Source of the DNA: Telopea speciosissima
Lineage: Eukaryota; Streptophyta; Magnoliopsida; Proteales; Proteaceae
Length of the DNA stretch: 64,000 bases
Direction of reading: 5' to 3'
NCBI RefSeq assembly: GCF_018873765.1
Contig: NC_057918.1
Span: 64,606,871 to 64,670,870 of the forward strand
Below the pieces are notes generated by a model. The model was not told the origin of the DNA. It made no database searches and saw only the letters and a program-made list of their open reading frames with translations. Position 1 is the first letter of the stretch, and each line of letters opens with the position of its first letter. The position numbers and the translations under genes are program-made. Shown one piece after another: positions 32,139-52,923 of the stretch.

Positions 32139-35100
32139 ATGGGGAAGGGCGACGATGCACTTCGCAGAAAGAAGAACAAGGTGATCCGTAAGAGGATGCA
32201 GAAAGACCCTTCATCAGTTTCTTCCCGAGTGGCTGCTATTATCGCCGCCAAACAACGCCGCAAATCCGGCAAACGTCGCATGTGCGAGGTATGTGAGATC
32301 GCTTATTACTTCCTGCTCAGATTTTGAAGAGCCCATATAATCGATTGTGTAATGGCTATGAATCAATCGATTCTCTAACACAATCTTTAGCCCAAAACGA
32401 GCTAATCTTTGAATCAATTAAACCCCTTTCGGCATTTCACTATGAACTTACTTCTTTTTCTCTTTATAAGTTTTTCTTACTACAAATTCTAACCTGTTGA
32501 AAAATCTGTGATCTGCGTACTAAAATTTGTAACATTTTTCTAAGTTTTTCTTTCCTGGCTTAATTCGTTGGGAAGCTTTACCATGCTAGTGACTTGTTAT
32601 TATTCGTGATGGATTTTGCTCCTAGTTAACCAACATTAGTTTTTGTGGATTCGTTTTGGGTTTTCAGGGCATGTGTTTTGGCCTTCCTACTCTAGAGGAT
32701 CCGTTCAATGACAGACACGGGAAGAAGGATGTCAACATAAAGAAAGCCAAGACGGTACACTCTTCCCAACAGGATAGAGGGTCTGCCTCTAAGAAGGATT
32801 CTGGCGGCAGGAATCCTGAAAAGTTAGAAAATAGAAAACCCAATAAGGAGACAGCTATGAATCCAAAGAATGGGCAAAACAAGAGGGAGGGCCAGCCTCA
32901 AGCAGCCCCTTCGAAACCAGTTAAAGCAAATGCCAAGCTCATTGGGAAGGGTAGAGAGATTCATGCCAAAAACAGAGGGCTTTATGGAAGCTCAGATTGC
33001 CCATCTAAATTTCTTATTATGTGCTTGAATGCAATTCAGAATGCATTGCCGCATGATGGTACCTTGAATGGAAATAAAGACACGCCTTTGTTGGTTAACA
33101 CGTGGGGATTTGAGTTCTGGAAATGTAGTTCTGCTGGATTAGATATTCTGGAGACGACTGGAGCTTGTTCTACCACAGATCAAATTGCGTGGATGGCCTC
33201 CACCGCAGCTGATACTATTGCGAGAAAGGAGAAAGAAGGTCTATCTGTTGCTAGCCCTTTTCTCTTATTTCTTGTTCCATCGCAAGAGAAAGCCATTAAG
33301 GTTTGCAGTTTTTGCTTTGTTAATTTTGCCCTCTCTCTTTCCCTTTTTCTCGCGATAACAGTAGATGATTGTTGCTTATTCCTTATGCTTAATGACATCC
33401 TACTGCTAGAAGTTACTGATTTGGTTACCAATGCTATGCTTCACATTATGCTCAGGTTCGGTCAGTATGCAAACCTCTTAAGTCTCTTGGAATACACACA
33501 GTGAGTGTACATCCTGGTGCATCACTAGAGCATCAAATTCATGGGTGAGTAGCTTGTGTTCTTTCTCTGGTATACATATATACGTGTTAGTTACTGATAA
33601 TTTGAAGCTTGTAACTGGTTCTAATCTAACACGTAGGCTTAATGCTGTTAACTAATGAGCATGTGTTGTGCATGTAGTCAAATACTGTCGTTGTGGCTTC
33701 TAATGCCAAGATCCCATTGTTATAGGGTAAAAATTATGTCATTTCAGACCAAGATGGGAAGATGGAGGGAAAGCTAGAGTATTATTTGGCCTAAGTTCCT
33801 CCCCCCCCCCCCCTCCAGATTCACCTTCTATACTTTTCTATTAAGGGTAGTTATTGGTTTCATAAGGGTTTGTGATGTTTCCAGAAGTCACAAGACAAAT
33901 CTAAGCCAGTGAGCCGTCCAATTTTCATGGGTTTTCTGTCGGGAAGAGATGCGGAATAACCTTCCCACCTATGTGAATCAAAGAAACAAACGAAAAATGG
34001 AAACCAAACAAACAACCACAAACCAAAACGAACAGAAGATTTAACGTGGAAGACCCTTCAATGTGAAGGGAAAAACCACGGGGCAATTCCGAGAATAATC
34101 CACTAAATCAAACAAAGGATTACAATGATTCACCTCTCAAGTTTATGCCCAAACTTGAGATCCACCACAATATTGAGAAAAGAAAATAACAAGCACTTGG
34201 AGAGATTACAAGGTTACCTCACACTTTAAAGAAGATGCTACCAGATCACCTCTAAAAGCCACCAACAATTTCTCCTAAAGCTTGGAGAACCCAACTGAGC
34301 AAGCAAGTTGCAACTTCGGTTACCCGGCTAAACAAGAGCATGAGATGTAGCAAAAACGGCCTTAAGAATGACCCAAATGTGAGAGCTAAACATCCACAAA
34401 AATCCTTCACTTCTTTTCTAAGAGCTCCAAGAACAAAAGACTTCTTATCTTCTTCTTCTCAACAAAAAAGGTGAAAAACAACTTTTCCTCTCCTTGGAAA
34501 AAGTCCACTTACTCTCTCTCTTCCTTTTTCTTGCAAAGAACGGAACCCACTTCTCCCTTTACGTAGGTTACCTTTTCAATTCAAAACCCACTAAGAATGA
34601 GAAAGTGGCCTTTTTGACTCCTCAAATGGGTTTTGACCCAACTTGGTCCAAGCACCCAAAAAGCTCCACATGGGGCTGGACCAATATAGCCCAACACCCA
34701 ACAAACTCCCCCTCCAGTCCCATGAGGAGGACTCCTCCATACTGCAGGCTCATATGGAATCCATGCCTACCAAATTCTTGCATAGTTTATGCTTCTCCTT
34801 TGGCATTGTCTTGGTCATCATATCTGATGGATTCCTATCAGTATGAATTTTATTGATCTTCATCAAATCACTTTCAAGGATATCTCTAATCCAATGATCC
34901 CGGACCTCAATGTGCTTGGTCCTAGAGTGGAATGTAGCATTCTTGCTCAAATCAATGGCACTTTGACTGTCACACCTAACAACGTACTCCTTTTGTTCCA
35001 AACCCAACTCCATAAGAAAACACTTTAACCATAGCATCTACTTACAAGCTTCTGTGGCAGCAATTTATTTTGCCTCAGTAGTTGATAGAGCAACACACTT

Positions 35101-52923: not shown

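Follow-up and report, generated by a model that had tools for sequence, protein, structure and literature searches.

The window, that is the whole stretch of 64,000 nucleotides analysed here, holds an intact seven-exon gene, most likely of plant origin, on its plus strand (32139-52923) whose product resembles DEAD-box helicases over two lobes and has lost several of their motifs. Judged by its sequence, this protein is probably a pseudohelicase, a relative of DDX5/DDX42/DDX46-like DEAD-box proteins that serves nuclear RNPs as an assembly factor or scaffold without using ATP. The first-pass annotation had already read the gene as coding for an intact helicase-fold protein lacking ATPase residues, and the open frame, the homology over two lobes and the motif alignment all support that reading.

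The exons were assembled by hand, and all six introns (379, 155, 5649, 2465, 10226, and 234 bp) are bounded by canonical GT-AG splice sites. Over a gene span of 20.8 kb, the spliced exons form with the short version of exon 7 a single open frame of 558 aa, with one stop placed at its end, which bears out the earlier claim of seven exons joining in frame with no stop. Exon 1 (32139..32288) provides the start codon and a strongly basic N-terminus ([14 protein letters not shown]...[13 protein letters not shown]; pI 11.28 for residues 1-60), and ends at a GT donor. The remaining basic tail and the start of lobe 1 are encoded by exon 2 (32668..33300); this part includes PLLVN, which alignment alone marks as a degenerate Q motif, followed by TTGACST at motif I and PSQEKA at motif Ia. 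Lobe 1 continues in exon 3 (33456..33544), where HPGAS occupies the position of the GG motif of canonical proteins, and in exon 4 (39194..39293), which falls within the Pfam DEAD match and reads STPERL in the region of motif Ib, against TPGR in canonical proteins, while motif II VVDGLE, motif III SNC and the inter-lobe linker are found in exon 5 (41759..42013). Lobe 2 starts in exon 6 (52240..52412) with motif IV VLFIVET, and the short form of exon 7 (52647..52923) contributes motifs V and VI in degenerate form ([19 protein letters not shown]), the C-terminus and the stop.

The start of exon 7 admits two plausible in-frame acceptors 48 nt apart, leading to 558 aa (52647) or 574 aa (52599), with two more in-frame acceptors at 52653 and 52656. 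The candidate 5′ extension (52599..52646) adds 16 residues resembling the motif IVa helix. A profile HMM built from six DEAD-box proteins of the same genome favors the 52599 acceptor (93.4 bits with the extension vs. 88.7 without, +4.7), as does DDX23 (37.4 vs. 31.8 bits, +5.6). DDX17 (65.5 bits without the extension, 63.7 with) and DDX42 (61.4 without, 57.6 with) favor 52647, their gain being of +1.8 to +4.3 bits, with smaller gains for DBP2, DDX46, and Vasa.

The two longest introns contain transposon remains. In intron 3 (33545..39193, 5,649 bp) these are of a Copia-type reverse transcriptase (35068-35745, minus strand; RVT_2, E 5.6e-16), and in intron 5 (42014..52239, 10,226 bp) of a Copia-type gag (42340-42945, minus strand; Retrotran_gag_2, E 1.1e-6), accompanied by an LTR-like repeat pair. 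The direct repeats of this pair (48408-48609 and 50405-50594) are about 200 bp long and 89% identical, with a weak, sub-threshold gag-like frame (49224-49586, E 0.009) between them, and together they are perhaps a short Copia-type element with LTR-like ends. Elsewhere in the window, retrotransposon remains matching RVT_1, zf-RVT, and RVT_3, read as of non-LTR type, lie at 6753-8681 (minus strand) and 20343-20771 (plus strand), and a direct duplication with a spacing of about 3 kb, whose ungapped pieces are 90-99% identical, extends over 22353-27206. A low-complexity, triplet-like tract with Pro/His/Thr-type frames on the plus strand precedes the gene immediately upstream (30962-31270). Two open frames on the plus strand had no Pfam match; the one at 63248-63871 presumably resembles the start of a CSLA glycosyltransferase, and the one at 19257-19712, we assume, the start of a plant unc-13-like (MUN) protein.

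The homology to DEAD-box proteins is, by the scores obtained, far beyond chance. Profile searches with DEAD and Helicase_C had been proposed with the first-pass annotation: the former, PF00270, matched residues 246-362 (profile positions 45-161 of 167) with 37.9 bits and E 1.9e-9, above its curated cut-off of 26 bits, and was the sole Pfam-A match of the protein at E up to 10, while Helicase_C had no match in the protein at that same threshold. Lobe 2 is backed by other comparisons. At E up to 1, a phmmer search of PDB sequences gave matches to 113 different ones; among the best 60 of these, DDX17, DDX42, DBP2, and DDX46 ranked highest and aligned from about residue 245 to about 550, over both lobes; the match to DDX17 covers residues 246-547 with E 3.2e-17, and those to DDX17 and DDX42 end at residues 547-553. 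The local HMM and hhalign against the six DEAD-box proteins of the same genome place the homology at 246-552, with an hhalign probability of 98.9 over 289 columns. Both RecA-like lobes thus appear to be retained. Ten NCBIfam bacterial RNA helicase families also matched, all far under their own cut-offs. Significant homology starts at residue 246, i.e., after motif I, and residues 158-245, where the Q motif and the P-loop are expected, gave no significant match.

Ahead of the lobes lies a tail of different composition. Residues 1-155 have a pI of 10.87, with 42 Lys and Arg and 15 Asp and Glu, and the segments from residue 156 onward have pI values of 4.6 to 6.0; the fold index is negative in the four 40-residue windows up to 160 and positive in nine windows covering 161-520. 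The tail is probably disordered. KKxK-like patterns were found in the protein at 11 and 75 and a bipartite pattern nowhere, and a nuclear or nucleolar placement may be predicted from its composition.

The motifs were compared in a MAFFT alignment of the protein with seven rows from the same genome (one of which, L016, overlaps the gene of row L003), and differences were found at motifs Q, I, II, III, V, and VI. The genomic proteins aligned are presumably DDX42- and DDX46-like, and DEAD and HR[IV]GRTGR are present in every row except L006, which has DEVD and HQIGRASR. At the putative Q motif P[TMS]P[IV]Q is aligned with PLLVN, placing Asn opposite Gln, in the region lacking a significant match. 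Motif I TGSGKT becomes TGACST (TTGACST, 213-219), with Ser218 at the Walker-A Lys, a placement based on spacing and on two agreeing aligners (MAFFT and hhalign with mact 0) in the absence of a significant local match. Several RNA-contact motifs differ in the MAFFT alignment as well, among them motif Ia (PTREL to PSQEK), GG (to GA) and motif Ib (TPGR to TPER). Motif II reads DGLE (327-330, within VVDGLE at 325-330) in place of DEAD, or DEVD in L006, and motif III reads SNC (358-360) in place of SAT. The ATDVAARGLD-like motif V is altered, with ARG gone, in a stretch spanning V and VI, and HRIGRTGR of motif VI is replaced by KILTRMAR, where the His and first Arg are lost and the second and third Arg kept (R510 and R513; ILTRMARH starts at residue 507 in the 558-aa numbering). 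The claims made at first pass, namely a motif I without the Walker A Lys, VVDGLE for VLDEAD, SNC for SAT, and a motif VI keeping two Arg without HRxGRxGR, thus hold at the residues given here. By this comparison the loss is strongest in the ATP-binding half of lobe 1.

A protein search of the genome returned 32 match rows from 42 candidates and one intact copy; the rows comprise the seven exons of the gene itself, four rows in three fragment loci (two in C9, one each in C5 and C10) and 21 others of 24-37% identity, where the four long matches reach 24-27% and short exon pieces up to 37%. The C9 fragment (L029), 90% identical to the gene, consists of exon 2 from CDS position 242 together with 34 bp of intron 2 and is interrupted by a stop and by 21 inserted columns. 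The fragments on C5 (L030) and C10 (L031) each hold exon 4 and flanking intron at 94% identity, the latter with extra short pieces of intron 3. The C5 match (284-359) first seemed to span joined exons, until the genomic alignment showed intron sequence. That the three loci are processed retrocopies, and hence a sign of transcription, was rejected, since they carry intron sequence and are genomic fragments. The three fragments, of which those on C5 and C10 share exon 4 with overlapping but different ends, perhaps result from gene-fragment capture by a mobile element.

At TTGACST the codons of the C9 fragment are identical to those of the intact gene, so that motif I, gene conversion aside, was changed before the C9 duplication. 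This bears on the possibility of a lineage-specific loss, with normal helicase orthologues elsewhere and a dead version in one lineage. The lower bound on age comes from the C9 fragment only and concerns motif I only, which leaves this explanation some room, but the change in motif I predates the C9 duplication, and the 24-27% identity of the long matches in the genome, together with a Q and motif I region beyond profile recognition, suggests a long divergence. Other plants moreover probably have similar proteins, Arabidopsis At2g28600 being the likely counterpart. A loss confined to one lineage is therefore unlikely.

The same fragments allow ordinary decay to be considered, in which an old DEAD-box duplicate would be turning into a pseudogene with a frame still open by luck, as might be supposed from the loss of several motifs and from long introns 3 and 5 with their transposon remains. 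Against this, 558 or 574 codons are open over seven exons with canonical splice sites, and the frame of the C9 fragment, which is still about 90% identical, has already been broken by insertions that change it and by a stop. Between exon 2 of the intact gene and C9 there are 16 synonymous and 22 non-synonymous differences (pN/pS 0.39, a contrast that may include time before the C9 copy broke), and a simulation with the observed transitions and transversions expected 10.8 synonymous differences against the 16 seen (P 0.038). In the region of exon 4, the intact gene alone is changed, relative to both fragments, at 0 of the 92 coding sites and at 12 of the 431 non-coding sites, the 12 possibly including changes from a shared ancestor of C5 and C10, and changes unique to the fragments number 6 and 15 at these coding and non-coding sites, respectively; by a hand estimate, all six coding changes would lie on the fragment side with a probability of about 0.05. 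Pairwise counts in exon 4 (0 synonymous and 1 non-synonymous for C5, 1 and 4 for C10, pN/pS 1.30) yield no usable ratio. The events are few and the tests agree in direction, and they weakly suggest purifying selection on the intact gene. With this synonymous excess, weak as it is, and no gene-unique change in the 92 exon 4 sites, decay appears quite improbable.

A further alternative is that ATP is still bound or hydrolysed in an unusual manner, via substitute residues. Asp327, which corresponds to the first Asp of DEAD, is kept, as are Thr219 in motif I and, in motif VI, R510 and R513, which we take to be arginine fingers; all would be compatible with it. Neither the Walker-A Lys nor the Glu of DEAD is present, however, and by alignment the Gln of the Q motif may be replaced too; losing any one of these three normally abolishes or cripples activity, which makes a residual use of ATP very doubtful.

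The possibility raised at first pass that a missing exon carries the true motifs was also checked. A tblastn comparison of the cores of six DEAD-box proteins of the same genome with the window as a whole (E up to 1) revealed no exon bearing the lost motifs. Apart from an antisense match (E 0.23), it returned exon 5 alone (E 0.12); the search missed the other degenerate exons of the gene as well and is informative on canonical exons only. A six-frame DEAD search of the genome had no match in the window among its 54 matches, which is weak evidence, as 48 of 182 candidates were scored and the gene's own exons were unlisted too. Hand assembly and the alternative acceptors of exon 7 notwithstanding, it is hardly credible that the gene model is wrong and that another exon carries the true motifs, given the outcome of the window search and the location of motif I within one 633-bp exon and of motifs II and III within another single exon.

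If the protein is a pseudohelicase, the loss of the residues that bind and hydrolyse ATP would leave it without the cycling between open and closed states, and binding without hydrolysis would be static, making it an ATP-independent platform. The basic, probably disordered tail may direct the protein into the nucleus or nucleolus and bind RNA or RNP, and the lobes may recognise by shape either RNA or a partner protein, which could itself be an active helicase; RNA binding by the lobes is not assured, because the RNA-contact motifs are altered too. The setting would be the assembly of a nuclear RNP, perhaps the pre-ribosome, by analogy with what has been proposed for Utp25, the process itself being a guess. 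The two arginines kept in motif VI are a point against this reading, as a purely structural fossil would not need them. A bolder version, which we regard as speculative and rather unlikely, would see here a plant-wide pseudohelicase family apart from Utp25/Cms1, which lost its ATPase early in plant evolution and was then retained as a clamp or a cofactor for a partner helicase, working without ATP and essential to nuclear RNP assembly. Its arginine fingers would act in trans on the ATP site of a genuine DEAD-box partner, either completing or blocking it.

Plant databases probably list the family already, with a name that implies activity. AT2G28600 is entered as a P-loop NTPase in a table of one article (PMC3282757), and the string “At2g28” is absent from the main text of a genome-wide survey of RNA helicases (PMC3827086). 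No functional study of the counterpart family was found in open-access full text (supplements and subscription papers lying outside this scope), and a search of the open-access literature for the motif strings gave no paper on the subject. If the likely plant counterparts share the losses, the labels DEAD-box helicase and P-loop NTPase name an activity against which the sequence argues.

Among known proteins, the best matches over both lobes are DDX5/DDX17, DDX42, and DDX46/Prp5. The DEAD-box proteins of the same genome have a similar C-terminal segment after motif VI, but keep canonical ATPase motifs and reach 24-27% identity in the long matches. Prokaryote and viral collections were scanned as well, where 9 and 1 stretches, respectively, fit a pattern and none was confirmed as a relative. 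Cms1/CMSS1 is a DEAD-box-like protein without the motifs, involved in pre-ribosome assembly; identity with it was rejected, as the protein has no CMS1 (PF14617) match, and none was obtained in the genome at E up to 1e-3, with 12 candidates scored.

In the open-access literature searched, three papers use the term pseudohelicase, two of them for a named protein (PriA and Utp25). In Deinococcus radiodurans, PriA is described as having poorly conserved helicase motifs and neither hydrolysing ATP nor unwinding, while retaining DNA binding and interacting with DnaB (PMC4504706). PriA is a bacterial DNA replication-restart protein, and its loss is a separate one. The closer comparison is with Utp25/Def, the pseudohelicase of the SSU processome: in yeast, according to PMC9539457, its first ~160 aa are predicted to be disordered and are followed by two RecA lobes of DEAD-box type in which the motifs are vestigial and DEAD is missing, the protein is essential and its motifs dispensable (Ia and VI were ablated without visible effect on growth), and roles as helicase cofactor or scaffold have been proposed for it. 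Identity with Utp25 was rejected, as Pfam-A (E up to 10) gives PF00270 and no Utp25 family. Separate matches to Utp25_C occur in the genome in four rows on C5 and C61 (C5:40299061-40299465 and C61:39322-43000), perhaps two gene copies or an alternative haplotype. The protein described here follows the same plan as Utp25/Def, a probably disordered tail and two degenerate lobes, but its similarity to true DEAD-box proteins is plain at the sequence level, and a further case with both lobes recognisable by sequence would be useful for studying the role of a helicase fold that does not use ATP.
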